A stretch of 21,657 nucleotides of DNA from IMG/VR virus record IMGVR_UViG_3300025127_000333, positions 1 to 21,657 of that record. One strand, given 5' to 3'. Position 1 is the first letter of the stretch. Each line of letters begins with the position of its first letter. This document shows positions 7,393-21,500 of this stretch, one piece after another. This DNA is from a virus. Under the pieces are notes generated by a model. The model ran no database searches. It was not told the DNA's origin and saw only the letters and a program-made list of their open reading frames with translations. A program made the position numbers and the translations under genes.

Positions 7393-7884
7393 TTATGTTG
7401 CTGCAAACACACGCACGTTAGCGGTGCTGCCTGAAGAGTTATAACATTCGATACGATCAATAGTATCTGCAGTCCAGTTTGTTTCCCACGTATCGTTTTC
7501 TGCAAGATAGTTTGCTTCACTAAATGATCCAGCAACGTCACCTCTGTTACGGCTAAGATCATCTGCAAGACAGAACGGAATACCTGCTTGTAGTTTAACA
7601 ACCCATGCGTTCTCTAGGTTACTGCCAGCAACGGTGCCACCCTCATTACACATAAGCTGTATCTCTACAACCTGATCTGACTCAACCCACAAGAAATCAA
7701 AGTCATCCAACATAGTGTCATTCCACACCTCTACTAGCGTACCGTTAGTAATAGAATAACGTTTGTCAAAGTAATGTGTTATTGTAATTGAGTCTGTAGC
7801 TGTAGTGCTGCCACCAGTGATGGTGTGCGAGTCATCATCTGGTATATCTACAGTAAAGTGTGTAGTGAGGCTTAGAGTAGCCAT
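7393..7884 (-). CDS. Hypothetical structural protein, beta-rich
   Basis: 163 residues, not recognised. It is acidic, with alternating hydrophobic/polar strands: SHTITGGSTTATDSITITHY, TNGTLVEVWNDTM, and QVVEIQLMCNEGGT followed by ENAWVVKLQAG, then TIDRIECYNSSGSTANVRVF at the end. No signal peptide, membrane segment or catalytic motif is seen. The fold looks like a small beta-sandwich. Ribosome site GGAG lies 9 nt before the ATG. It sits among head and tail completion genes, so a minor capsid, spike or tail-completion role is likely by context only. Its stop TAA begins the ribosome site (AAAGGA) of the next gene. Confidence 0.8.
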   Translation of the reverse strand: MATLSLTTHFTVDIPDDDSHTITGGSTTATDSITITHYFDKRYSITNGTLVEVWNDTMLDDFDFLWVESDQVVEIQLMCNEGGTVAGSNLENAWVVKLQAGIPFCLADDLSRNRGDVAGSFSEANYLAENDTWETNWTADTIDRIECYNSSGSTANVRVFAAT

Positions 7885-7908
7885 TATAATTTCTCCGTTT
7901 TCTAGAAA

Positions 7909-8547
7909 CTATTTACCCCATTCTTTCTTCAGGTAATTCTGTACAAGAACAGATTTGGTAAAAATTTGCGGTGCTTCTTTATTCTGTGATAAAAATTGAT
8001 TTACCTCATATAGATTTTTTAGTATAAAATATTGTTGATACGAAATGTTAGAAGACATCCAACCTAGTATGTTTGTTCTAACTCCAGACGTTACTTTTGT
8101 AACACCGTGGGGATACGTGATAGGAAAGATAGCTGCTTGCCCCATCTCCAATTTTCTAGAAATAACGCCCAACTCTGTTTCAAAGAATATCTCTCCACCT
8201 TCATAGTTGTCATCCAGATTAATAGTAAAACCATAGTCAAAGAAGATATTATTGGATTTTGGACTTGCTTTAAAATTGTCAACATGAAGATTGTAGTAGT
8301 CTCCTTCTTCGTATCTGTTATAATAATTTACTGAAACTCTGTTGGGACAATACACTGTATCAATATAGTGTGTGTCATACATCTTAGAGATAATCAGTTT
8401 GCGTACTTCATCTGGTACGCCCTGTGATTCTTTGTTTTTTTTGATATCTGATACTGGTTGTGTTTTGTTACCGTCACCAAAAGTATCGTTGTTAATTTCA
8501 TTGTAGCAGAAGTCTGCTTCTTCTTTATTAAGTAGCTGTACAAACAT
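7909..8547 (-). CDS. 2-oxoglutarate/Fe(II)-dependent oxygenase, PKHD/prolyl-4-hydroxylase type
   Basis: 212 residues, close to the usual 200-230 of this class. These enzymes hydroxylate a substrate with O2 and 2-oxoglutarate using one Fe(II). The facial triad is visible: H88 and D90 in YYNLHVDNF and H147 in ITYPHGVT, with the 2-oxoglutarate-binding Arg at R157 (SGVRTNILGW). The double-stranded beta-helix core includes FTINLDDNYEGGEIFFE (107-123) and LEMGQAAIFP (133-142). The C-terminus (170-212) is a helical tail. The substrate is unknown; it could be a virion protein, a host protein or a small molecule. Start ATG has AAAGGG 7 nt upstream. It is an enzyme set among structural genes, a pattern seen in marine phages. 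Confidence 0.9.
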   Translation of the reverse strand: MFVQLLNKEEADFCYNEINNDTFGDGNKTQPVSDIKKNKESQGVPDEVRKLIISKMYDTHYIDTVYCPNRVSVNYYNRYEEGDYYNLHVDNFKASPKSNNIFFDYGFTINLDDNYEGGEIFFETELGVISRKLEMGQAAIFPITYPHGVTKVTSGVRTNILGWMSSNISYQQYFILKNLYEVNQFLSQNKEAPQIFTKSVLVQNYLKKEWGK

Positions 8548-8589
8548 AGTATGGCCCTTTCACAAATAATTGAACACAGCAAGAAAGGT

Positions 8590-8625: not shown

Positions 8626-9093
8626 CTACGTTCCAGATGAAACTGTAGCTGATTCGACAGGGTTACGAGAGATGTCGCAGATAACAGCGTGTACGCGCAT
8701 ACGCAACGCAGTTGTTCCACTAGAACCACCATCAAGAACCGTGACTTGAATCGCGTTAGCGGAGGTAACAGTGTTAATCGCTGCTGCTTTCAAATTAAAT
8801 TGAATAAGCGCAGCAGAGTTAGAGCCTCCACCGTCAACTAGCGAATCAACATCCGTCGATACACCAACGTCAAGAGTAATTTGTCCATTACCTGAAGCTT
8901 CTAGAACTTCGAGGCAACCACCAATTACCATCGTGTCTGCAGGAAGATCGATGAGTTTTACCACATCATCTCCTGCAAGGCTGGTGTTGTCTACAGCATC
9001 GTATACTGGAGAAGTAATGACATAAGGAACAGAAGCATTAGAAGGATGTCCTACCGTGCCTCCACCCGTAACTGTCCGATCATAAGTAGCCAT
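8626..9093 (-). CDS. Structural protein, candidate capsid decoration protein
   Basis: 155 residues, not recognised by name. It is beta-rich and Gly/Ser/Ala/Val-rich, with almost no Lys or Arg, as in shell-surface proteins. The middle reads KLIDLPADTMVIGGCLEVLE, then QITLDVGVSTDVDSLVDGG and ALRMRVHAVICDISRNP, suggesting a compact beta-sandwich or jelly roll. It follows the coat gene by 14 nt and has the strongest ribosome site in the window, so it is probably made in high amount. This suits a decoration or cement protein. The alternative is a small tail or head-completion protein. Confidence 0.8.
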   Translation of the reverse strand: MATYDRTVTGGGTVGHPSNASVPYVITSPVYDAVDNTSLAGDDVVKLIDLPADTMVIGGCLEVLEASGNGQITLDVGVSTDVDSLVDGGGSNSAALIQFNLKAAAINTVTSANAIQVTVLDGGSSGTTALRMRVHAVICDISRNPVESATVSSGT

Positions 9094-9102
9094 GATTCAT
9101 AC

Positions 9103-9110
9103 CCTCCTTA
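9103..9110 (-). promoter_or_regulatory. Ribosome binding site overlapping the coat-gene stop codon
   Basis: TAAGGAGG on the minus strand: the coat TAA (9110-9108) supplies the first bases of a full AAGGAGG site, 9 nt before the ATG at 9093. Ribosomes finishing the coat gene end on this site, which should couple high expression of the next gene to coat synthesis. Confidence 0.85.
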
Positions 9111-10079
9111 CGAGCCAAGATCAACAACACCAGAGAACACACCCTTGTAGCCATCGCCGCTACCACGCAGAACTTTACGTCCGAAGACATGAAGACCACG
9201 AACAATATCAGCAAAGCTGTCAGGGTCACGAATAACTTCCGTTTTAGCAATGTGAGAAGCTGTAGCAACAGCACTCATATGTCCATACAGGAAGATGTGT
9301 TCACCAGCATTGGTCGATGAGAATGTGTGACTCGACGCTGAACCAGCACCACCGTTAACGATAGCGTTAGTCTGATACAGTTTAAAGCCGTGAATGATTC
9401 GATCCGTTACCATACCATTCATTAGCGCAGAACCTGCTTCTCCAGTAACACTGGAATCCATCAGTTTTGCATCGGCTTGACGCAGAACTTCATAGAACTC
9501 AGGGTCGGCAACTAGCCAACGGTTTTCATAAGGGACATCGTTTTCGTCCATAACCTTTGCAGCAGCACTGATTGCATTGGCAAGTTCGTTACCCGTGCAA
9601 GCAGAACCAGTACCAGAACCAGTGATAGGAGACGCATCCGTACCCGTGTCACCTGCGCTAGTAGCAGCGTTGCTGTAAATGTTGTTAAGAACGTTGAAGT
9701 CAAACGCTTTCTTCAAAGTGTACGCACCAGAAGAAGTCGCCAGTGACTCAAAGTTAAGGTGAGAATGACGCTCTTCAATGTCATCTACCTTAAAAGCAAA
9801 GTAATTGCCCTGATCCACAACAAGCTGGATTTGGTCATCTGCCAAATCTTGCGTGTTAACTGTGGAACCGCGAGTATACGAAGATACCGAAATGGTCGGC
9901 TCTTTAATGATATTCACGGTGTCACCGAAGTTCTCAATCTCTCCAGAGTAATCGGTGTTGGTAATAGCTTCCGCTACCGAAGACCTACGAAAGTATTTGA
10001 GTACCTTTTGACTGTAGATAACAGGTACGAAATTACCTGACGGTAAGTTTGCGTATCCTGCAGCACTTGCATAAGCCAT
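9108..10079 (-). CDS. Major capsid (coat) protein
   Basis: 323 residues that build the icosahedral shell, in the HK97-like fold group by family resemblance. The N-terminus carries VPVIYSQKVLKYFRRSSVAE and AITNTDYSGEIENFGDTVNI, the typical start of coat proteins of podoviruses and marine phages. A motif YFAFKVDDIEERHSHLNF follows near residues 93-110, the helix that packs the capsomer. An insertion with Gly/Thr/Ser repeats (about 140-165) and the phrase NDVPYENRWLVADPEFYEVL are also typical. Position after the scaffold, a strong ribosome site and a length of 320-330 all agree. The stop codon TAA is part of the next gene's ribosome site. Confidence 0.93.
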   Translation of the reverse strand: MAYASAAGYANLPSGNFVPVIYSQKVLKYFRRSSVAEAITNTDYSGEIENFGDTVNIIKEPTISVSSYTRGSTVNTQDLADDQIQLVVDQGNYFAFKVDDIEERHSHLNFESLATSSGAYTLKKAFDFNVLNNIYSNAATSAGDTGTDASPITGSGTGSACTGNELANAISAAAKVMDENDVPYENRWLVADPEFYEVLRQADAKLMDSSVTGEAGSALMNGMVTDRIIHGFKLYQTNAIVNGGAGSASSHTFSSTNAGEHIFLYGHMSAVATASHIAKTEVIRDPDSFADIVRGLHVFGRKVLRGSGDGYKGVFSGVVDLGS

Positions 10080-10113: not shown

Positions 10114-11019
10114 TTATAGAGAATCTACTACTCGACCCTCTTTAGCTGCCTTGTCTATATCCTTTTCTACAGCAGCATATTCGTGAGGCTTTAACTTAGA
10201 AATTTCTTCGACAGTCCAAACTTTAGTGTCATCCTGCAGGTCTTCAATATAACGCCGTTGTTGCGTTTTTGTGATAGCCTCTGCAGCACTACGTTTTTGT
10301 GTCTTAGGTTTTCCTTGTGTAGTAGACCTCTTTTTTGACCTCGTTTTAGAGGACATACCTTTATCCGCTTTATACAAGTCAATAACTCTTGCGGCCCATT
10401 TAGCATCAGTATTGTTTTTATAGATACCATCTGCAATTGTAGAAGGCTGCTCATCAAGCCAGTTAAGAAAATCGTCACTCTCTTTCAACTCACCAAAGTC
10501 AGAGTGCATACTTAGAAGTTCTTGTTCTGCAGTTTGAACAACAGCTTCTTGCTCTTTAACTTTAAGGTCTTCAAGACGCGACTCAATATCTTTGACTCGA
10601 TCACTTGCCTTTAACGCTGAGATAGTTTCTACAACATCGTAAACATCTGGATACTTTTCACGGAACTCTGTCAACTCTTCCTCTGTCTTGGGCAGCACTG
10701 GTAGTTCACTAGATTTTTCTGCCATCGAAAGTTTAGCCTCAAGAAGTTCTTGTTGCTGTTTCCATTCGTTTAGTTTGCTGTCATAATGCTTTTTTAAATC
10801 ACCATAACGTTTTTTATAGTCATGTTCATTTGAAGCATTATCCTGCCTATTGACCAGACCTTGTTTTTTAGGTTTCGGAGTAGCCATATCTACAGGGTCT
10901 TCCACCTCATCATCGTCTGGTTCGTCTAAGCTTAACCTATACTGATTCTCGTATGGGGTAGGCTCAAGTTCTTCGTTGTACTCCTCTTCTAAAGCTATAT
11001 CATCATTACGTACAGTCAT
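10114..11019 (-). CDS. Capsid scaffolding protein (inferred)
   Basis: 301 residues. The acidic N-terminus (1-45, many Glu/Asp) leads into long predicted coiled coils (about 65-105 and 130-170, e.g. RVKDIESRLEDLKVKEQEAV). A basic patch follows at 225-245 (SSKTRSKKRSTTQGKPKTQK), and a short helical domain ends the protein (267-295, TVEEISKLKPHEYAAVEKDI). Acidic-helical-basic composition and a place directly upstream of the coat gene are the hallmarks of podoviral scaffolds, whose basic C-terminus binds coat subunits. No protease domain is seen. There is little sequence identity to rely on, so the call rests on composition, size and context. The gap to the coat gene is 34 nt. Confidence 0.8.
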   Translation of the reverse strand: MTVRNDDIALEEEYNEELEPTPYENQYRLSLDEPDDDEVEDPVDMATPKPKKQGLVNRQDNASNEHDYKKRYGDLKKHYDSKLNEWKQQQELLEAKLSMAEKSSELPVLPKTEEELTEFREKYPDVYDVVETISALKASDRVKDIESRLEDLKVKEQEAVVQTAEQELLSMHSDFGELKESDDFLNWLDEQPSTIADGIYKNNTDAKWAARVIDLYKADKGMSSKTRSKKRSTTQGKPKTQKRSAAEAITKTQQRRYIEDLQDDTKVWTVEEISKLKPHEYAAVEKDIDKAAKEGRVVDSL

Positions 11020-11158
11020 CTTTACCTCTCTTTCGTGGGGCCGTACTGAACCAGGATAAATTAAAAAAGCTCATCCAAAAAGTTACTAGCATACGGGTAG
11101 CCTACGGTAGGTTAGCAATGGGGCCAAACAACACCTTGTTACTTGGGTAGCCATTGAT
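11020..11158. other. Longest non-coding gap, between lysozyme and scaffold genes
   Basis: 139 bases without a convincing gene. On the minus strand it holds two copies of GGCTACCC followed by AGTAAC (plus-strand 11138-11152 and 11082-11102), separated by 1 and 7 bases. The sequence between them can fold into an imperfect hairpin that ends just before TAACTTTTT (about 11079-11115). This could be a leaky terminator or processing site splitting the lysis genes from the head genes. Weak -10-like sites (TATGCT, TATCCT) exist but lack a good -35. A purine-rich ribosome site (AGAGAGGTAAAG) lies immediately before the scaffold ATG. Confidence 0.4.
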
Positions 11159-11641
11159 TTAAAGGAACATCTGATAAAATTCAGAATTACGATGTTCCAA
11201 TTCTTTTACTTCGCCATAACCATTGCGATAGTATCTCTTGTATTCCTTGTGCATTGTTTCCGTATCGTTATCTATAGCTGCAGCTACAAACTTAGGAAAC
11301 TTACGTAGTCCGTTTGCACCAAGGTTAAAAACAAAATCAGTAAACATTTCTTTACAATTTTGCGGAAGGCTGTCAAAGTCACCACTGGCAAACTCAGAGA
11401 TAACATGGCTAGCACCATCGCAAGCATTTAGTATATCGTGTATTAGTAACTTCTCTATTTCGTCGTCACTAACACCTTCTTGCATCCACTCTTCACTGTC
11501 TAGTAGCTTGTGTCCGTAACCAATAGTGTCGTTACCGCCTTCTGGTGATTTGTGCGGATACCATGTGCCATCTTGAAAACCAGCTTTACCGCCGTTCTCG
11601 ACACACTTAATGTACTCTATGAACTGCCCACGTATTTCCAT
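11159..11641 (-). CDS. GH24 phage-type lysozyme (T4 lysozyme family)
   Basis: 160 residues, normal for a single-domain GH24 muramidase that cuts the MurNAc-GlcNAc bond. Catalytic Glu is E15 in KCVENGGKAG; the paired Asp is D24 (FQDGTWYPH), nine residues later as in T4 lysozyme (E11/D20). The third residue is T39 in DTIGYGHKL, with about nine extra residues between D24 and T39 compared with T4. FVFNLGANGLRKFPKF (103-118) matches the second conserved helix region. No signal peptide or membrane segment is seen, and no holin is evident nearby, so export needs a partner outside the window or the enzyme is particle-borne. It is coupled to the SleB gene by a 1-nt overlap. Either endolysin or entry enzyme is possible. 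Confidence 0.92.
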   Translation of the reverse strand: MEIRGQFIEYIKCVENGGKAGFQDGTWYPHKSPEGGNDTIGYGHKLLDSEEWMQEGVSDDEIEKLLIHDILNACDGASHVISEFASGDFDSLPQNCKEMFTDFVFNLGANGLRKFPKFVAAAIDNDTETMHKEYKRYYRNGYGEVKELEHRNSEFYQMFL

Positions 11642-14361
11642 TATGCTGCCTCGTCAAGAACCCTATTTACAAAACCACCATCTTTTTTATTAATTCCAAA
11701 AAATATGTGGCTTTTTATTTTAGCTGTTCGTGTCATATTTTTTGCCCAAGACGGTTCTTCTGTTACACCTTCAGGATTGTAATAATGTGTAGCACCATTA
11801 GTGATATCTTCATCTTTACCTTGTAATATTTGTTCTGCTAATTTTTTTGCTTGATTATAAAGTTTATCGCCAGAATCTGTATTCATCATAGTTACAAAGT
11901 TTTCGTATCGTGGACCTTTATATGCTTCAGGGTCATTTAAGTCTGGAAGAATTGCTGAAAATTGTTTCTTTGCTAAAATAACATCAGGAATAGTTTTACC
12001 AAATCTTGTGCCGTATTTAGTGCGATTATTAATAACGTGCATGACGGCTCTCATACCTTCTATACCATCTCCTCTTGCTTCACCCATAGCAACGAGAGCC
12101 ATCATTTGAACAGGATGCAACTTACTAAATAAAGCCATGTTTTTCTTAGCTTCTTGTATTTTTTCTGAATCAGGTGTCATTTGTTCTATTGTTGGTTCAG
12201 CAGTAGCAGGTACACTATCATTAGTCATCCCTGATTCATCTACACCCATTTCTTTCATAGGTTCTAATCGTTTTTGCAAGAACGGGTCTGATTCTGTAGA
12301 AAGTGGAGATTTTGGTTCAGGAGTGTCTAGATATACCCCGCTTTTTGCTATTTCAGGCATAGGTATACCTCCTGGTTCAGTTCCAAGAGCGTATCCCTGT
12401 GGTGCAGCAAAACCTTGCTGTACAACACGGCCCATTGGATCAACCATTGGAGGTTGTTGTGCTTGCCTACGTGTGCGCTCAAGAGCTTGCATTTGATTGT
12501 AAGCAGAAGGTGATTGTTGTGACGCATCAGCTTCTAACACTGCAGCACTAGTTTGCATTTGTCTCTTTTGCGGATCATCTACAAACCCACCTTGTTGCAT
12601 CATTGGTGCTTGGGGTGCTGGAGCCGCCTGTGCTGGTGCTGGTGCAGGTTGTGCTTCAGCCATAGGCTGCTGCTCCTGCATAGATGGTTGCTTTTCTTCT
12701 TCAAGACGCTTACGCAGGTCGAGACCTTCTTGCCTGATTTTATCAAGATACTTTTTGCCACCGCCAAAAAACGGCACAAGCATTTTAGGAATGTGATATT
12801 CATAGTTACTTACTTTAATTGGTACGTCATCAGTTGGGTCTAGGTCTGTGCCTTTAAGATTAACACCGTTCTCCATTGCTAGGTCGATGGCTTCTTTAGC
12901 GTAACGGTTGAGGTCTTTTAGACCAACTAGTAATACTGTCTCGTAGGGCAGAATGTAGTCACCTGCATCAGCTTCGCGTGGTATGTCATCCTTCACAGAC
13001 ATTGCACCGCCCTGTTGTGGCTGCGCTGCTTGTTCGTTGATCATGCCAAGGTTAGACATGTCGGCTTCTGCACCCTGTGCTACTTGACCGCCTTCTTGGT
13101 AGTCACCAAAACCGCCGTCTCCAAAATCGTCTCCTCCAAAATCGTCTGCCCCGCCACCTCCAAAACCAGTGCCACCGCCGCTGCTGTCACCGCTGCCATC
13201 GCCGTCACCGCCGCCATCATCGGCAACTCCATCCTTTTCACCTGGAGCATCTGGAGAACCTGCTTCAGGACCGCCTGATAAGTCTGGTCCTCCTCCACCT
13301 TGATCAAGTCCAAAATAAAAACTATCTTTCTGACCATACGTTTGATTTAAAACTTCATCTACATAACTTCTATTTTCTTGTGATATTCCAAAAAATCCAT
13401 CTCCTCTTACGTCTATAATATTTAATGCAGCAAATGGATCTTTATCCGCTAAATTTTGAAAATCTGCTGTTGTACCCATTGCAACAGTTTGACCACCTGC
13501 AGTTTTAAATGTACCATCTAACTGATATCCAGGTGTAAAAGATCCCGAAGAGTACTCTTCTCCTCCTACTAATTTTAGTAGAGGTTTCATCCAAGTTTTT
13601 TTACTACCGAATACAGGATGATTTTCATAATTATCTTTTTCAATTTCAAAATAAAGGTCTGGGTCTATTACTTTTCCTTCTCTATCAACTGGTTGTCCTA
13701 AAAAATTAAATTGTGAAAAACCTGCTTGAATAGCTGCTATTTCCTTATCATTAAGATCACCTTGAGCTATTAGTGCATCTATTTCTTCAGCCGTTAATGT
13801 ACCTACATCTGTGTATACATTTTCTGATTTCATACCTGATATAAATGCTGCCCCACCTCCAGGTAAAGCTAATTTTAATAAATCCATAACACCTATATCA
13901 GGATTAACCATAGGATCTATAACATCACTACCAGAGGTATCACCATCATCTTGAGCCTTACGCTGTGTCTGTATTACTGATTGTGGTGCATCAACAGACT
14001 CTATAGGTGCAGCAGGAGCAATTGATTCTGCATCTTGAGCCATACCAATACGACCTCTAGAGGAACCAAACGGAGAGGAAGTAAACGTAGATAAGCCACT
14101 AGGCATTAAACCTGATTGTGCTGCAGTACGATAAAACTTTTGTGCAGAAACACCTTCAGGTACTTCAGGCAATAATTCGTTTTGACGAAGACCAATACCC
14201 TCGTTTATTTTTTCAACAATTTCAGGCCAAGAAAGTTTTTTCTTACCAGAAACAGAAGATGTAACACCTTGTGGCGTTATTGTTCCAGGTTCAATAGTTG
14301 TGCCTGTAGACTCTCCTAGTGCTTCTTCAAATTGTTCAGCGATTTCCTCTAGTGTTGCCAT
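11641..14361 (-). CDS. Virion-type protein with C-terminal SleB-like cell wall hydrolase domain
   Basis: 906 residues. Residues 1-350 are polar, with no family I recognise. Residues 354-420 are almost wholly Gly/Asp/Ser, a flexible linker. Two tandem copies of a DD[IV]P...Y.[IL]P unit follow (458-487 and 511-540), then a Gln/Pro/Ala-rich linker (560-660). Residues about 750-890 match the SleB/CwlJ hydrolase_2 fold: MALVAMGEARG with candidate catalytic E761, MRAVMHVINNR, KKQFSAIL, and DITNGATHYYNP with PSWAKNM. The domain cuts peptidoglycan. Fusion to a long flexible body suggests a particle-borne enzyme used at entry rather than a free endolysin. The start has AAAGG 9 nt upstream and overlaps the previous gene by 26 nt. 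The stop overlaps the lysozyme ATG (TAATG). Confidence 0.9.
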   Translation of the reverse strand: MATLEEIAEQFEEALGESTGTTIEPGTITPQGVTSSVSGKKKLSWPEIVEKINEGIGLRQNELLPEVPEGVSAQKFYRTAAQSGLMPSGLSTFTSSPFGSSRGRIGMAQDAESIAPAAPIESVDAPQSVIQTQRKAQDDGDTSGSDVIDPMVNPDIGVMDLLKLALPGGGAAFISGMKSENVYTDVGTLTAEEIDALIAQGDLNDKEIAAIQAGFSQFNFLGQPVDREGKVIDPDLYFEIEKDNYENHPVFGSKKTWMKPLLKLVGGEEYSSGSFTPGYQLDGTFKTAGGQTVAMGTTADFQNLADKDPFAALNIIDVRGDGFFGISQENRSYVDEVLNQTYGQKDSFYFGLDQGGGGPDLSGGPEAGSPDAPGEKDGVADDGGGDGDGSGDSSGGGTGFGGGGADDFGGDDFGDGGFGDYQEGGQVAQGAEADMSNLGMINEQAAQPQQGGAMSVKDDIPREADAGDYILPYETVLLVGLKDLNRYAKEAIDLAMENGVNLKGTDLDPTDDVPIKVSNYEYHIPKMLVPFFGGGKKYLDKIRQEGLDLRKRLEEEKQPSMQEQQPMAEAQPAPAPAQAAPAPQAPMMQQGGFVDDPQKRQMQTSAAVLEADASQQSPSAYNQMQALERTRRQAQQPPMVDPMGRVVQQGFAAPQGYALGTEPGGIPMPEIAKSGVYLDTPEPKSPLSTESDPFLQKRLEPMKEMGVDESGMTNDSVPATAEPTIEQMTPDSEKIQEAKKNMALFSKLHPVQMMALVAMGEARGDGIEGMRAVMHVINNRTKYGTRFGKTIPDVILAKKQFSAILPDLNDPEAYKGPRYENFVTMMNTDSGDKLYNQAKKLAEQILQGKDEDITNGATHYYNPEGVTEEPSWAKNMTRTAKIKSHIFFGINKKDGGFVNRVLDEAA

Positions 14362-14587
14362 CTTTATGTGCCTTTATTGTAGCTTGTGTAGCATCCTTTA
14401 GGTTAATTAAGGTTTCCAGTAAAGCCAGCTTGCCCTGGAGACGGCGCAGTTCCAACTCCGATTCCACCACCACCAACTGCTGTCTCATCGTTTGGGCCAC
14501 TTCCTTGAGGTAGCTTTCCAGCCCCTGCCATTCCAGATTGCTGTTGGCCAGCGGCAGCAGCTTCTGGGCTTGCTCCTTGTTGATCAT
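14336..14587 (-). CDS. Small coiled-coil protein overprinted on the portal 3' end
   Basis: 83 residues in a different frame from the portal. The first 185 bases lie inside the portal gene and the last 26 overlap the next gene. It has its own ribosome site (AAAGGA, about 10 nt before the ATG). The protein is well-formed: EWQGLESYLKEVAQTMRQQL and then a heptad-like helix ELRRLQGKLALLETLINLKD. This looks like a small phage protein family that normally follows the portal, with an LRRLQG-L-LL-L core. In the overlap the portal sequence is low-complexity, so the constrained frame is probably this one. Function unknown; a helical oligomeric structural or assembly role is a guess. Confidence 0.8.
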   Translation of the reverse strand: MINKEQAQKLLPLANSNLEWQGLESYLKEVAQTMRQQLVVVESELELRRLQGKLALLETLINLKDATQATIKAHKDGNTRGNR

Positions 14588-16538
14588 TAGGCATAAGTCC
14601 TTTTAGTATTTCTGCAAAAATTGCCGCATCGTTTATATCATTTACGAGTAAGTCTGGTTCGATGTCTTGACTTATTGCAAGCTCTCGAATCAGGTTCGGT
14701 ATTTTTATAAACGGTGCCAGCATCGGATTCGCAACTGTCTGGAGCAAAGCTGTTAATCGTTGGGTGCGTACCTCTTTTTGTATTACTGCACTGGTTCCTT
14801 TTGGTTTAATCTCTAGATCACCAATCATCTCTGGTGTCTTGTCGTTAAACTGCATGTTCCACTGAAAGAAAGCTTCTCCTAGTGGTTTAAGAAGAAAGTC
14901 ATCAATGTTCTTGATAACAGTCTTTACGCTAAGTCCTGCGCTAGACATTAACATGCTTAGTCCAGCAGCAGTTCGTCCTGTTCCTGTAACACCCGTCTGC
15001 CCGTGTACAATAGACGGTATGCCTGTCTGCTCGTCAGCAAGTTGCCTTGCTTTGTCAAACATCTGCACGTTCTCTACTGCAGTGCTGGGAAACTTAATGC
15101 CGTTGACGGCTGTGCCTGTAACACCAGATTGCCGCCTAAATATCTTGCCTGGGTATACGTCCATTGTCTGACCAGGAACAAGCTGTGTTTCGTCTATGTC
15201 AAACACAAGATTACCTGCCAACGCTAAGTTGTCGATAGCCATACGAATGTGGCCATTCATCAGCATCTGGCTATCTTCCATGTTCTCTGCTACGCCTACA
15301 CCAAACAACTGGTAGGGGTTAAGTTCATACGGGAAAGCTTGGAATGGTATACGTGCAGGAATAAACGGATTGGCTACGAACCGTAGTATCTCGTTGCCAG
15401 ATATCCATATGTTTACTTGGACGGCATCGCCTTGCTGAATTTCTTTCGGAGCTTCGATACCAAGCTCTTCAGCGAACTTAGCGTCCATTGCACCCCAATA
15501 TTCAAATACTTCAAAACGGCGTCCTTGATAGTTAGGATCATCGTCATTAGCATAGAGAGTGCTTTCATAATATTTTTCTTCATAGTTAGGTCCACCTTGT
15601 AAAACATTTTCTATTGCTTCTTCGTTGAAGAAGGGTCGATTGCCTAGATCACGTATCTGTTCTCTATTCATGCGGTGCCGCTGAATAACGTAATCTGCAT
15701 CTCCCAAACTTGTAGCACTTGGGTCGGGATAAAAGTCCCAACAACTTACTGCTTCGACGCGAGGCACAACTTTGTTTGCGGGAGAGTATTCACCGTCCTG
15801 CCAATTGTGTACTGTTTTGTTGTAATTGAATGGACCTTTTATTATTCCTGTGCCAAGCAGCGCACACTCAAATATAGCGTGACGTAATACAGTAACAGCG
15901 TTGGTATCTAGTAGCTGGTCCTGTATGCACGTTTCCATGTTACGTGCTGTTTCTGCTGCAGGACTAATTTGTGGTTCTCCTGAACGAGAGGGACCAGAAG
16001 CTAAATTGGCACCTTCGTACTTGTCTTCAAGACCACTAAGCATTGCCGCTGTTGGTCCTTGTGGACCTTGTTGCATTTCTGTAGCTTGTGTGGCACCTGG
16101 AAGTATTTCTCTACCGTCACCTTCGTAACCAAATAGATCAGTTTGTTCTGGCTGCGCTTCTTCTAATGGAACTTGAGATAAGTGGGCAAACTTGTCGATA
16201 CCCTCTGGTATAGGTGTAGATTCAACAGAGATAGGAAACTTGCTGTTAGCAAATAGTATGTCAATAATTTGACCATACGCAGCAAGAACCTTCGTCTTTG
16301 TTATCTTTACAAAAACTTGGCTACGCTCGTTGTCACGATACTGCGTAGTAGAGTCGTAAATACCACGATAGTTCTTGTAGGCTTTTAGCCACCGATCTTC
16401 GTCGTTTCTACGTCCTGTCTCTGCATCTGAAAACCGTGCCTTAACAGTACCAATGATACTGTTAAAGTCTTCACGGTTCTCACCTAGATCAATTAGCCCT
16501 TCTGTCTCTTCGTCATCTAGAAAAGATTCGTCAGCCAT
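14403..16538 (-). CDS. Portal protein (P22-like head-tail connector)
   Basis: 711 residues. The portal forms the dodecameric ring at one capsid vertex through which DNA enters and leaves. The wing/clip pattern of the P22-type portal is clear. An N-terminal helix contains RNDEDRWLKAYKNYRGIYD. A core strand region follows with EAVSCWDFYPDP (262-273) and FEVFEYWGAMDAKF (342-355). The conserved stem region reads LNPYQLFGVGVAENMEDSQM (406-425), then IRMAIDNLALAGNLVFDIDE. The signature GRTAAGLSMLMSSAG lies at 521-535. Residues about 121-200 are a Pro/Gln/Gly-rich linker. The last 60 residues are low-complexity Gly/Gln/Pro and are overprinted by another gene. The length fits podoviral P22-like portals. 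Confidence 0.93.
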   Translation of the reverse strand: MADESFLDDEETEGLIDLGENREDFNSIIGTVKARFSDAETGRRNDEDRWLKAYKNYRGIYDSTTQYRDNERSQVFVKITKTKVLAAYGQIIDILFANSKFPISVESTPIPEGIDKFAHLSQVPLEEAQPEQTDLFGYEGDGREILPGATQATEMQQGPQGPTAAMLSGLEDKYEGANLASGPSRSGEPQISPAAETARNMETCIQDQLLDTNAVTVLRHAIFECALLGTGIIKGPFNYNKTVHNWQDGEYSPANKVVPRVEAVSCWDFYPDPSATSLGDADYVIQRHRMNREQIRDLGNRPFFNEEAIENVLQGGPNYEEKYYESTLYANDDDPNYQGRRFEVFEYWGAMDAKFAEELGIEAPKEIQQGDAVQVNIWISGNEILRFVANPFIPARIPFQAFPYELNPYQLFGVGVAENMEDSQMLMNGHIRMAIDNLALAGNLVFDIDETQLVPGQTMDVYPGKIFRRQSGVTGTAVNGIKFPSTAVENVQMFDKARQLADEQTGIPSIVHGQTGVTGTGRTAAGLSMLMSSAGLSVKTVIKNIDDFLLKPLGEAFFQWNMQFNDKTPEMIGDLEIKPKGTSAVIQKEVRTQRLTALLQTVANPMLAPFIKIPNLIRELAISQDIEPDLLVNDINDAAIFAEILKGLMPNDQQGASPEAAAAGQQQSGMAGAGKLPQGSGPNDETAVGGGGIGVGTAPSPGQAGFTGNLN

Positions 16539-16552
16539 TGCAACTCTCTTTC

Positions 16553-16786
16553 TTAGCTATAGATGCCTTGCTTGTCAGCAGCCATAATCATGGAGGCTTG
16601 ACCCATGTGCTTGTTACCAGCTTCCGCAGGTGCATCTTCTGTGAGCTTGCCTACGTTAATTGTAGTGTTGAACTCTAGCGGCTCACGATATAGTGATGCC
16701 TCATTTGCGTCAGACATTTCGCCTTGTTTGCTCATCTGGCCCATGATGTAGCCAGCCTTGTATGCTTGTGGATTACCGTATGCCAT
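16553..16786 (-). CDS. Small hypothetical protein upstream of portal
   Basis: 77 residues, not recognised. The N-terminus is Gly/Tyr/Met-rich (MAYGNPQAYKAGYIMGQMSK), with a polar middle and a Met-rich C-terminus (MGQASMIMAADKQGIYS). It has no membrane segment or known motif. A near-perfect ribosome site AAAGGAG (16795-16801) lies 8 nt before the ATG and directly follows the upstream stop, which supports this start and good expression. Only 14 nt separate it from the portal. A minor head or connector component is possible, but that rests on position alone. Confidence 0.75.
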   Translation of the reverse strand: MAYGNPQAYKAGYIMGQMSKQGEMSDANEASLYREPLEFNTTINVGKLTEDAPAEAGNKHMGQASMIMAADKQGIYS

Positions 16787-16801: not shown

Positions 16802-19372
16802 TTAATTAGGTCTGTTTGCGAAGTACCCTCTGTACCTCTGTGTCAGAGACTCACTTTCAAACTTGTCTTCAGCCTCTTGAACCGTTTCACTTCGTTGTTG
16901 TGCAAATGATGGTGACTTACCTTGTATTCGATTTATTAGTTCTTCTCTAGTAGGTCTAAACGTTTGTCTAGATTTTTCTCTGGCAGATTTAATCATAGCC
17001 TCTCTTTGACGACCTGCTAGTTCCCGCTGCATCTTATCTGTTAGTGCTTCTTCTGTTGCATCGCGATTAACAAAACGTTGTGGACTTCCAGGTGCAGCCA
17101 TGCCTGTTTCTAAACTTTCCATTAGCTGCTCTGTTTCTAAATCTTCTTCTGCTACACCTGCAGTTGTTGCATCAAAGGCAAACTCAGCCGCCTCTGCACC
17201 TTTAGCTACTAACCCTGCTGCACCGCCAACAAGGAAGGGTGCTACTGTCTTCACTATCTTTTTAGTACGAGAAAGTATACCTGATCTTATATCAGCCCTT
17301 ACTTTTGCATTTCGTTGGTCAATCAGTTCTCTTTTTCTTAAATTATATTTTTTTGGATTGGTATCATAAAGTTCATTAAGTTCTTCTACAATTTCAGGCG
17401 TAGCTATGTCTGGACCCAGCATTGCTGAGAAGTTAGGTTTAACTTTAGGTTGCTCTTCAGGAAGAACCTCATCCATCTGTTGCTGTGTGGGTGTAGTTGG
17501 TTTTTTTTGTTGTCGTTTTCTTTCTGCTGCTTCTTCTTGTGCTGCTATAAACTCTGGGTCGTTTGATATTTCAAGTATTTGTTTTTGCGTCTCTAGAGTT
17601 TCTAAGTCAATATCTGCCGCTGCTTTTTGCATTCTTGAAGCGTTGAGTTTGCTTTCTGCATCTAGTGCTTCTTTTTGTGCTTCTGTTAAAGGAACTGGTT
17701 TTTGTTTTTCTCTAGCTATCTGTCCAGTTTCAACAGTTTCCTCTAAAGGGTCTACTATCTGTATGCCTTCAGGAAGACCAGAAGTATCTATATTTAATCT
17801 TGTAGGAAGAAAATCTAACGTTGGAGATTCGCTATACCAAGCAATCATATTTTCTATGCCTTGCAAAGCATCTCTCGTAAGATTTTTTTGAAGACCTTTT
17901 ACAGGTGAGATATAATGTCCTCTTGTTATACCTGCAAGCCCTACAACATCTACCAATCCAGCAGAACCCTCTGTGTGTCCCATAACTTGACTTATAAGAG
18001 TACCTGCCATACCGTCTGGAAGACCTGAAGCCTTAACAGCTAAAGAGGGGAATATTTTTCTCCAATCAGACGGACCTTTTATAGACCTACCAAATGTATC
18101 TTTAAATTCTTGATCTAATATGTACCTTATCTTTTTTGTTTCTAAATTGCTTGCTAAAACTTTTTTTCCGTCTACTTTTACATATCTTGGAGAAAAAGCA
18201 GTTCTAACTTCATCAAGAGTAACGGAGAAAATTTTAAAATTGTCATATTCTTTTCTTAATTTAGGATCGTTAATAAGTTCTGCTACAGTTTGCCCTTCTG
18301 AACCATACTGTTCTATAAATCTTGCATCTGCTCTTTCTTTAGCAGAACGTAAAATAGAACTTCCTAAATCGCCTATTTCAGACTTAGCTCTTGTTTTTTG
18401 ACCTCTGCCATATTCTGTAATTGTAAAGATATCTCCAGCCTTTACGTCAGCGTTAGTTAGATTTATTGTTTCTCCTATTCTTTCTAATGTCATTGCGTTA
18501 AGACTTAGTATCGCTCTAATATCTTGAGTTTTAGCAACGTCTATAGGGCCAGGAACAAGTTTTCCTGTTTTATCTTTTGAGTATTTAAAATATTGTAATT
18601 CGTTTATACCGTCTACAATACGAGGTATTATATTTCCTGGCTCTGGAATTTCATCAAATGCAGCAGAGAATCTACCTTGAAAAGCAATGGTTCTTGTTTT
18701 AGGTTTTCTTGTTTCAGAATCTTTTCCTGTTTGTAATGCTGTGCTTGAACCTTTATACTCTGTACCTTTTTCAGCGTTAACGTCAAAATCTCTAACATCA
18801 AAACTTCTGGCAATGCCTTTATCACCAGTGATGCGTAATCCCTCGCCAACAGTAAAGGGATATGATAGTCCTTTAAATTCGCTTCTGTTAGAACTTTTAA
18901 CATTTGTAAAAAATTTTTGAGCGTTGTCTTCAACACCCATGAAACCACCGCTATTAAAAAATGGAGCCTTTATTAAGGGGTGTTCCATTAACTCAAATAC
19001 GCTATCTCTAGTAGCGAGATCAGAAAAAGGTGTATCTAGCGATTTCCCCATACCCTCAAATAGGTCAGTGGCTCTATTGACATACTTATCCCCAGCGCGA
19101 TCAGCCGCTGTTAAAAATTCTCTAATGGTCGCATCACCAGAAGATAATCTTTTAGCAAGATCAACATCGCTGATTTCTACAGGTTTAAATTTTCTTGTTT
19201 TTGAAGGTTCTGGTGCTTCTCCCCGAGGTATACTAAAAGATGGGGATGGTCTTGTATCATCTGTCGGCATTGTAAATAGACCTTTCGGTCCCTTGCCAAT
19301 GCTTTTTCTTACTTGATCAAGAGAAACCCTTCTATCGGGTATAAAGGAGGAAGATTTTTTATCGTCTGCCAT
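16802..19372 (-). CDS. Large virion-region protein with tyrosine-recombinase-like domain
   Basis: 856 residues between terminase and portal. I do not recognise the whole protein, but residues about 285-490 read like the catalytic half of a tyrosine recombinase. A box-I-like RAILSLNAMTLERIGETINL gives R298, followed by a basic hairpin with K326 (GRGQKTRAK). A box-II-like SDWRKIFPSLAV gives R438, then SQVMGHTEG gives H466 and GITRGHYISP gives Y487. The order matches R-K-(H)xxR-H-Y, but the box-II His is Ser435 and spacings are longer than in lambda Int. The C-terminal half has a Glu/Gln/Lys-rich probable coiled coil (560-640), a hydrophobic segment (708-725) and a charged tail. The start ATG overlaps the terminase TGA. 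It could be an ejected internal protein, a degenerate integrase, or a structural fold with chance motifs. Confidence 0.85.
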   Translation of the reverse strand: MADDKKSSSFIPDRRVSLDQVRKSIGKGPKGLFTMPTDDTRPSPSFSIPRGEAPEPSKTRKFKPVEISDVDLAKRLSSGDATIREFLTAADRAGDKYVNRATDLFEGMGKSLDTPFSDLATRDSVFELMEHPLIKAPFFNSGGFMGVEDNAQKFFTNVKSSNRSEFKGLSYPFTVGEGLRITGDKGIARSFDVRDFDVNAEKGTEYKGSSTALQTGKDSETRKPKTRTIAFQGRFSAAFDEIPEPGNIIPRIVDGINELQYFKYSKDKTGKLVPGPIDVAKTQDIRAILSLNAMTLERIGETINLTNADVKAGDIFTITEYGRGQKTRAKSEIGDLGSSILRSAKERADARFIEQYGSEGQTVAELINDPKLRKEYDNFKIFSVTLDEVRTAFSPRYVKVDGKKVLASNLETKKIRYILDQEFKDTFGRSIKGPSDWRKIFPSLAVKASGLPDGMAGTLISQVMGHTEGSAGLVDVVGLAGITRGHYISPVKGLQKNLTRDALQGIENMIAWYSESPTLDFLPTRLNIDTSGLPEGIQIVDPLEETVETGQIAREKQKPVPLTEAQKEALDAESKLNASRMQKAAADIDLETLETQKQILEISNDPEFIAAQEEAAERKRQQKKPTTPTQQQMDEVLPEEQPKVKPNFSAMLGPDIATPEIVEELNELYDTNPKKYNLRKRELIDQRNAKVRADIRSGILSRTKKIVKTVAPFLVGGAAGLVAKGAEAAEFAFDATTAGVAEEDLETEQLMESLETGMAAPGSPQRFVNRDATEEALTDKMQRELAGRQREAMIKSAREKSRQTFRPTREELINRIQGKSPSFAQQRSETVQEAEDKFESESLTQRYRGYFANRPN

Positions 19373-21015
19373 CAGTAACCAAATACACTATCTGCGGGTT
19401 GAAACGAATCTTTCTTAATCTGATTAAATATGCTGTTCTGTGGTAAGCCTGTAGGTCGTGTCATGCACATATACCTCAAAGCATCGTAAGCGTGGTCATC
19501 TGCCTTCGTATCTACATCTTCACTGTTAGTCTTAGACAAGGGTATAGTAGGTAGAGTCCGTATGAGGTTGGTACACGTTGAGAATATCTTTAGTTTTGGT
19601 TCGTCTGTTCTCTCGTCTACTGCTAACCGTCGATGTAGTTCTATCTTTCCTGGTATTCTATTCTTATCTGCTGGAATCCAGCGTGTTCCGTTACGTATCA
19701 TAGTCTCAGCTATGCTTGGCCCTGTGCCGTGCTTTGACCAACAAGCTCCATCTAACACAGAAATCTGCATGAGGGGATCATGTTCCTCTAATGCGTTGAT
19801 TATTCGTGCCAGTGTCTCTCCTGTGTAGCCTTTGTCGTACAGTTCTCTGTAAATCCAGATGTTTCCATCCCAATCTACAGCACCCCAAAGTACGCAACTA
19901 GGACTGCTATAACCATAGTCGGCTGCTCGTAGTCTAGGCCAGTTATATGGAACCTCAAACGGTTCAACAACGTGTTTTGACCTGTCAAACTCTGAGAAAG
20001 CAGCCCCATCCGCAACATCCCAGTCTCCTTCTAGCAGTCTTCTGCGCTCTACTTCAGGAAGAGACAGCAACATTGCTTCGTATTCGCCGCTCTCCATCAA
20101 AAACGGGTTATCTGTTAGTCTCGCAGGTATGAACCGTCTCTGATATAGTGGTTGATCTGCATTTGTCGGGTGATTTGGCCCGTAACGTAGAATATTACCA
20201 CTATCTATGTCCGTAGCCCAAAATGGGTCATTGGGGACCGCTGGGTCTACGAACATTTTCTTTAACCACCACCCACCTACACCTCCAGGGTTAGCAGAGG
20301 CTCTCATATACGTCTGTATCTCTGGGTCTGTGGTACGTAAACGAGAGCGAAGGTAGTTCCAAACGTATGGTGTAGGGTATTGACCCAGTTCATCTACACC
20401 AATCCACGTAAAACTCTGTCCTTGGTAGCGTGTAACGTCATTATCCTTGTCAACATAACTAAAAAGAGCCGTAGCACCGCTAGGAAAGGACCATGTATTT
20501 TTAGATTCTCTGAAAACTGCCCCTGGAAACGCCTTTGGATACAGTTTCCGTGATTGATCTATTAGCTCTGTTAGCTCTGCCAGTGTCCGTCTTAGTAATA
20601 ACGCTCTATGGTTGCCGTTTGAGGCGTAACGTAAGAGGTCTACCAGCATTGCAAACGATTTACCGCCACCTGCAGCCCCACCGTATAGCACTTCTTTCTC
20701 TGGTGCGGCTAGAAAGTCAACTTGTGGCCCTACGTTGGGCCTAAAAACAACCTCTGTGTTCTCCTGAATTGACTCTCGTATGTCTTTGGGCAGTGATTCT
20801 ATAAATTCTTTTGTTGTCGCACCGCCAGAACTAGCTATTTTCTGCCCATTTACCTGCTTAGTCTTGGTTTGTTGTAGTTTTGCTACCTTTTTTTCTAGTG
20901 CTTCTTGCTGTTTCTTAGCATCTCGTAGCTTACGCTGTGCTTCTTGCTTCTTTTTGCGTACACGGGATACGTTATAACGGCCTTTTTCTCCTGGCTTTAG
21001 CTTGGGTCTTGCCAT
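19372..21015 (-). CDS. terL: Terminase large subunit (DNA-packaging ATPase/nuclease)
   Basis: 547 residues. It is the motor that drives DNA through the portal and cuts concatemers. The N-terminus (about 14-52) is a Lys/Glu/Gln-rich coiled coil. The ATPase follows: Walker A GGAAGGGKS at 112-120, and Walker B with catalytic acid WIGVDEL at 204-210 (D208, E209). A motif-III-like region, MRASANPGG, lies at 237-245. The RNase-H-like nuclease has candidate metal ligands D366 (RAADYGYS), D422 (SVLDGA) and D506/D507/D511 (TKADDHAYDALRY). Both halves are intact and the length is normal for the family. The start overlaps the upstream stop (TAATG), so translation is probably coupled. The stop TGA overlaps the next ATG. 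Confidence 0.97.
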   Translation of the reverse strand: MARPKLKPGEKGRYNVSRVRKKKQEAQRKLRDAKKQQEALEKKVAKLQQTKTKQVNGQKIASSGGATTKEFIESLPKDIRESIQENTEVVFRPNVGPQVDFLAAPEKEVLYGGAAGGGKSFAMLVDLLRYASNGNHRALLLRRTLAELTELIDQSRKLYPKAFPGAVFRESKNTWSFPSGATALFSYVDKDNDVTRYQGQSFTWIGVDELGQYPTPYVWNYLRSRLRTTDPEIQTYMRASANPGGVGGWWLKKMFVDPAVPNDPFWATDIDSGNILRYGPNHPTNADQPLYQRRFIPARLTDNPFLMESGEYEAMLLSLPEVERRRLLEGDWDVADGAAFSEFDRSKHVVEPFEVPYNWPRLRAADYGYSSPSCVLWGAVDWDGNIWIYRELYDKGYTGETLARIINALEEHDPLMQISVLDGACWSKHGTGPSIAETMIRNGTRWIPADKNRIPGKIELHRRLAVDERTDEPKLKIFSTCTNLIRTLPTIPLSKTNSEDVDTKADDHAYDALRYMCMTRPTGLPQNSIFNQIKKDSFQPADSVFGY

Positions 21016-21500
21016 TACTTTTTAGTTTTCTTCTTACCACGTTTTAATGTTCCCGATTCCATTGTCATAGGATTTTTCATTCCTTTAGGCGGTCTGGAGT
21101 GAGGTTTGACTTCCTTTGCTTTAGGTAGGGGAGGAGCAGGAGGAGCGGGTTTACGTCCTGGTTTGGTAAATAATCTAGCTTTCTTTGGTTTACGTCCTGG
21201 TGCAACAGCAAGTTTACTTTTTGGTTTAGCTGGAGTTTTTGGTTTAGCTGGAGTTTTTGGTTTAGCTGGAGTTTTTGGTTTAGCTGGAGTTTTTGATAAT
21301 TGATTTATCGTGTCACCTTTTAAAGCGTCTCTAACTGATTTATACGCTTCATACGCCATAACTCCAGCACCTGCTAGACCAACACCAGCAGCAGCTTTTG
21401 CAAAAGGAAGTATTAAAGGTCCACCAGCAACTTTTACACCATCATCTTTATACTTAGCTTTACGCACAGGATTGGCGTATTTTTTAGATTCCTTACTCAT
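21015..21500 (-). CDS. Basic Lys/Pro/Ala-repeat protein upstream of terminase
   Basis: 161 residues, not recognised as a named family. Residues about 28-50 form a hydrophobic, Ala/Gly-rich stretch (LPFAKAAAGVGLAGAGVMAY) that could be a weak membrane segment or packed helix. It is followed by four TPAKPK repeats and a basic tail with two GRKP motifs (PGRKPKKARLFTKPGRKP). The tail resembles histone-H1-like or AT-hook-like DNA-contacting sequence, though the exact R-G-R-P core is absent. The start is placed at the ATG 3 nt after the upstream stop; no strong ribosome site is visible. Its TAA overlaps the terminase ATG by one base (TAATG). The position where a small terminase subunit often lies is suggestive, but the protein does not look like one. 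Role unknown. Confidence 0.75.
   Translation of the reverse strand: MSKESKKYANPVRKAKYKDDGVKVAGGPLILPFAKAAAGVGLAGAGVMAYEAYKSVRDALKGDTINQLSKTPAKPKTPAKPKTPAKPKTPAKPKSKLAVAPGRKPKKARLFTKPGRKPAPPAPPLPKAKEVKPHSRPPKGMKNPMTMESGTLKRGKKKTKK
21218..21289 (-). repeat. Perfect 18-bp tandem repeat, 4 copies
   Basis: Four identical 18-base units (plus strand TTTTTGGTTTAGCTGGAG) run head to tail, followed by five bases of a fifth copy. Each unit encodes TPAKPK on the minus strand. Identity at third codon positions shows recent expansion rather than old protein-level selection. The unit length keeps the reading frame, so copy number can change without breaking the gene. Confidence 0.95.

Follow-up and report, generated by a model that had tools for sequence, protein, structure and literature searches.

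A tyrosine recombinase with exchangeable catalytic modules in the TerL-portal slot of uncultured marine phages

Gene X and its place in the late block

The locus described here raises the question of why a phage would encode a protein with a tyrosine recombinase signature among its packaging genes, and what such a protein might do there. The window, meaning the whole stretch of DNA analysed, is a 21,657-base virus record (IMGVR_UViG_3300025127_000333) whose late gene block lies on the minus strand. In minus-strand order, the block begins as follows:

21015-21500, minus strand, 161-aa ORF upstream of TerL
19372..21015, minus strand, TerL, its stop codon overlapping the X start (TGATG)
16802..19372, minus strand, gene X, a tyrosine recombinase with a long C-terminal tail, 856 aa (ORF, family alignment, PDB profile search, AlphaFold/Foldseek)
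16553..16786, minus strand, 77-aa ORF in the X-portal interval, no family match
14403..16538, minus strand, portal (PHROG head-tail adaptor/portal)
11641-14361, minus strand, 906-aa protein with a C-terminal cell-wall hydrolase

The 906-aa protein is followed by lysozyme, a 301-aa protein, the coat protein and then more structural genes. This order resembles that of HMO-2011-type phages, but with X inserted, and the window TerL is 48-55% identical to TerL of HMO-2011-type isolates (Pelagibacter, Roseobacter and SAR116 hosts). Judged by these sequence relationships, the window appears to represent an uncultured marine podovirus related to the HMO-2011-type phages.

Several other features of the block were recorded. 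A 2OG-Fe(II) oxygenase gene lies inside the structural block (window 7909-8547), and Ntox30 of Pfam was matched weakly by a 163-aa protein of the same block (window 7393-7884), at E 3e-4 and 21.4 bits where the curated threshold is 25; this match is probably due to chance. The 161-aa ORF upstream of TerL contains a perfect 18-nt tandem repeat (window 21218-21307) and differs among close relatives. The 906-aa protein after portal is a second variable region among otherwise near-identical phages (reverse-complement coordinates ~7717-8560 and 8663-9963).

The sequence-only reading had placed X within the packaging cluster, and the wider survey bears this out. Of 96 loci with both neighbours visible and a gap >1.2 kb, 88 have X in the TerL-portal slot, and no X matches were found outside the slot in the same survey. 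All 12 loci found through the recombinase domain alone, a few of which share contigs with the earlier locus set, showed TerL-X-portal, or X-portal at a contig end. Only a few bases usually separate the X start from the TerL stop; in the window the two codons overlap. In near-complete records of 33-61 kb, a single X-like domain is the only integrase; in HMO-2011 a canonical integrase is encoded elsewhere and the TerL-portal slot is without X, and four other phages checked have neither integrase nor X. Since X sits in the TerL-portal operon, it should be made late, together with the packaging machinery. Nothing in the literature searched corresponded to a recombinase carried in phage virions or encoded in the terminase-portal interval.

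Fold and active site of X

Scanning with the X protein itself recovered near-copies only, whereas scans with TerL and portal yielded about 160 loci, most of which carry an ORF of ~590-1035 aa at the X position. Pfam and PHROGs fail to recognise the window protein and most of its relatives. The window X alone gave no integrase match in Pfam, PHROGs or PDB, a tblastn search of phage records with four members, window X among them, returned no match, and full-length subgroup alignments provided no searchable conserved block. Phage_integrase (PF00589) was matched by 20 of 67 members at E up to 0.1, with a best value of 4e-17, and close relatives of window X match it across the catalytic region, under the curated cut-off.

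A profile built from 59 relatives placed tyrosine recombinases at the top of PDB, with E-values of 4e-11 for Tn1549 Int, 1.1e-8 for S. aureus Int, 5e-6 for XerH, 9e-5 for XerD and 4e-4 for lambda Int. The recombinase fold that had been proposed from the letters alone was also recovered by structure prediction: the AlphaFold model of X residues 60-545 had a mean pLDDT of 85 and a pTM of 0.81 (81 and 0.81 for the catalytic-domain model), and its best Foldseek matches were XerH, S. aureus integrase, Cre, lambda Int, Tn1549 Int, HP1 Int and P2 Int. Foldseek probabilities reached 1.00 and E-values went down to 3.7e-4, with moderate TM-scores (~0.3-0.6), as expected for a core that has diverged and carries insertions. 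By sequence and fold, X thus belongs to the tyrosine recombinases, with a conserved active-site core. The helical N-terminal domain is probably a core-binding domain, as its position in the model suggests. The parts of X are as follows:

18875..19168, minus strand, residues 69-166, all-helical N-terminal domain at the core-binding place (high-pLDDT helices; the XerH alignment spans it)
17846..18640, minus strand, residues 245-509, catalytic domain (family HMM envelope, ~5-residue offset)
18479..18481, minus strand, R298, box-I Arg (63/64 in the family)
18470..18472, minus strand, E301, box-I acidic residue (11/11 in the subfamily, D/E 40/64)
18395..18406, minus strand, R323 to K326, beta-hairpin basic residues (323 K/R 57/62; K326 11/11 in the subfamily)
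18059..18061, minus strand, R438, box-II Arg, with S435 at the His position (65/65)
17975..17977, minus strand, H466, box-III His (48/65 H, 11/65 R)
17912..17914, minus strand, Y487, nucleophile (65/65)
16805..17845, minus strand, residues 510-856, C-terminal tail common to phages with differing catalytic modules
17204..17260, minus strand, Gly/Ala-rich tail segment ~150 residues from the C-terminus (position conserved, KS p 2e-8)

The five residues that first drew attention to X (R298, K326, R438, H466 and Y487) were found at their sites in the 856-aa ORF, residues 285-490 corresponding to 17903-18520, and Ser replaces the box-II His in the window protein (S435, three before R438). For the conservation analysis, 67 same-slot ORFs were aligned and two unrelated ones were removed, leaving 65 relatives that are mostly 11-30% identical. 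L150 was dropped from the alignment because it does not contain the signature, and Rhizobium phage RHph_N3_19, taken up as a syntenic homologue, was removed because its slot protein is FAD oxidoreductase-like. Among the 431 well-filled columns, the top ones were Y487 (65/65), R438 (65/65), G324 (59/59) and R298 (63/64). The median column maximum frequency was 26%, and the signature is therefore more than a chance arrangement. H466 is mostly kept, its column containing His in 48 and Arg in 11 of the 65 proteins, and the window also has the acidic box-I residue, E301, three positions past the Arg (D/E in 40/64 relatives).

Two details of the sequence-only reading needed correction. K326 had been taken as the hairpin Lys, and it is invariant in the window subfamily only (11/11, together with R298, E301, R438 and Y487); family-wide the hairpin basic residue is column 323 (K in 44 and R in 13 of 62), which is Arg in ten of the 11 subfamily proteins, including the window. 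The spacings of 28 residues between R438 and H466 and 21 between H466 and Y487 are correct for the window, but they reflect subfamily insertions, and many relatives have R-H 22 and H-Y 10-11. The observation otherwise held, and its interpretation was partly supported.

The box-II His position is S, K, G or Q throughout the family (K 16, S 12, G 11). The box-II His (or Lys) is a member of the listed tyrosine recombinase core set, yet it does not define the fold. X resembles tyrosine recombinases such as those of PF00589, XerH, Cre, lambda Int, HP1 Int and Tn1549 Int in its fold, catalytic order and Arg-Arg-His-Tyr core, and it differs from them in lacking the box-II His, in often having Arg for the hairpin Lys, in its 180-580 extra residues after the Tyr, and in being coded between TerL and portal. 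The invariant Arg, Arg and Tyr suggest that X remains able to cleave and rejoin DNA by way of a phosphotyrosine; this activity is less secure because the box-II His is missing and, in the window, Arg stands where Lys is usual. Overall, X is well supported as a site-specific recombinase, probably an active one, encoded with packaging proteins.

Exchange of the recombinase module

Phages whose TerL and portal DNA is mostly 87-99% identical to that of the window have no DNA similarity to it in X, and the junctions of dissimilarity fall at the X start and stop codons. Where TerL was at least 97% identical (59 pairs), the median identity of X was 25%, with 81% of pairs below 40%, against a median of 96% for portal. 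The exchange can also occur within the gene: in several pairs the tails are homologous (L106/L107, 64%; L024/L025, 79%; L005/L006, 53%) and the catalytic modules have no pairwise similarity, and other pairs share the module more than the tail. Phages that are otherwise near-identical have thus exchanged the whole recombinase module, in some cases onto a tail that they share. Within allele clusters, the N-terminal and catalytic module usually has a synonymous divergence below that of the tail and a dN/dS of 0.13-0.49, indicating that it is transferred whole and kept under purifying selection.

The hydrophobic segment previously noted in the tail has a conserved position (KS p 2e-8); its hydropathy, however, was not above that of shuffled tails. 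Comparison of the X tail with known virion proteins gave no match, and no C-terminal packaging signal common to the X tail and other structural proteins of these phages was found.

Possible roles of X

The reading that we tentatively favour overall, at a little under even chances, is that X is a true tyrosine recombinase that is loaded into the particle by its tail and acts on entry. X consists of a helical core-binding-like domain, a catalytic domain with an Arg-Arg-His-Tyr core and a fused tail of ~350 residues, and it would cut and rejoin DNA through a phosphotyrosine. The tail would fasten X to the packaging or virion machinery, so that X is loaded into the particle, enters the next cell along with the DNA and acts at once on a host or phage DNA site. 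Wholesale module exchange, sometimes onto the same tail, suggests that the DNA site recognised probably changes while the job of the tail stays constant. Carriage of X in the particle is our best guess because the gene belongs to the packaging operon, the tail behaves independently of the module, and an enzyme that is often retargeted would more naturally act on DNA other than the conserved sequence of the phage itself. The length of the fused tail also agrees with carriage. Counting against it, the tail matched no known virion protein, its hydrophobic segment was no stronger than in shuffled tails, and the search for a target site found none. The fuller proposal, in which a dedicated tail loads a site-specific tyrosine recombinase into particles for delivery with the genome and exchangeable modules retarget it, is possible rather than probable.

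Two other explanations are serious rivals to particle carriage. The first, which we consider somewhat unlikely, is that X is an ordinary integrase that has been relocated: the phage would be temperate, X would integrate it at an attachment site without entering the particle, and module swapping would be site switching. Integrase swapping is normal among temperate phages. X carriers have no other integrase and HMO-2011, with its canonical integrase elsewhere, has an empty slot, as if one had replaced the other; moreover, some HMO-2011-type phages are temperate (PMC9038755). Published genomes of HMO-2011-type phages have their integrase gene upstream of the replication module, and these integrases, although tyrosine recombinases of a related phage group, differ from X in size (~300 aa in HMO-2011) and location, none being reported in the TerL-portal slot (PMC9038755). 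The late packaging operon and the long tail of X do not fit a relocated integrase, and the TerL side of X has no intergenic room for an attachment site.

Searches for other genes of a temperate lifestyle also argue against it, if weakly. No repressor or excisionase was among the Pfam matches listed (25 of 26 families) for two near-complete carriers (ORFs of at least 80 aa), in agreement with the earlier remark that X has no excisionase beside it. The 49 mostly non-structural proteins of these carriers include DNA polymerase, ribonucleotide reductase, primase/helicase, a Cas4-type exonuclease and T7-type endonuclease I; PHROGs results for the carriers' proteins comprise the best 25 of 73. No tRNA was found in 12 segments of four genomes, nor any other RNA-gene landmark, and a search of GTDB through TerL and the recombinase domain (narrow peptide patterns; one genome per species) found no relatives or prophage.

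The second rival, which we hold to be unlikely, is a late genome-processing role in which X resolves concatemers or dimers, or aids packaging, on the phage's own DNA. It would fit the constant position of X between TerL and portal, and it has a precedent in baculovirus VLF-1, a tyrosine recombinase that is required for capsid formation and whose Tyr mutant is non-infectious (PMC3649998). No other case of a tyrosine recombinase taking part in virion assembly was found in the literature (PMC3649998, PMC11654684); VLF-1 shares with X the superfamily, but it belongs to an unrelated virus, and X is hypervariable and at most a candidate for a structural role. Late processing (concatemer or dimer resolution, or a packaging aid) was also proposed for phiCbK gp143 (PMC3556154). 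Like X, gp143 and the XerC/XerD proteins of Lacusarx are tyrosine recombinases of phages not known to lysogenise (PMC3556154, PMC5648845), but they are encoded outside the TerL-portal slot, and gp143 has only 208 aa and no tail. Module exchange against a conserved TerL and portal is unexpected if X acts on a conserved site of its own genome, unless the site lies inside the module, and no palindromic or repeated target site for X was seen in the window and G001, nor any convincing protelomerase-type palindrome or invertible element.

Iteron-like GCTGACAATTT repeats were considered as recombinase arm sites and rejected: their carriers share no X module, so they are not X-specific. G001 and G002 contain the exact 12-mer, G004 a variant of it. 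Clusters of similar direct repeats, spaced 15-24 nt, lie at L180:13799-13866 and 16450-16546 (G001, intergenic), and others at G002:50253-50348 and 52500-52554 and at L184:9477-9521 and 10941-11031 (G004); they are possibly an origin or operator. In another X-carrying phage, a 10-nt unit, CGGCTCGGCT, is tandemly repeated (L186:9586-9665, G007).

A catalytically inert fold kept for DNA binding, structure or regulation is improbable. In its favour, the box-II His is lost throughout, the window has Arg at the hairpin Lys column, the box-III His varies, and MrpR of SPbeta, a phage protein with a recombinase fold whose best matches are also XerH/Cre/Int, exemplifies such reuse, but MrpR has lost catalytic Arg residues, including that of box I, and recombination activity (PMC10516654), whereas both Arg residues and the Tyr of X are near-invariant in 65 extremely divergent members. 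The conservation of these residues at about 15-20% identity likewise disfavours the suggestion that the fold was reused purely for structure.

What is new about this tyrosine recombinase is where it is encoded, the tail it carries and the striking way in which it is exchanged. An integrase-type enzyme has a fixed place between the TerL and portal genes of these uncultured marine phages, where standard annotation has missed it. Either the phages are temperate and have gone unrecognised as such, or packaging or entry involves site-specific recombination; each possibility, if true, would change how the lifestyles of marine phages are read from their genomes.
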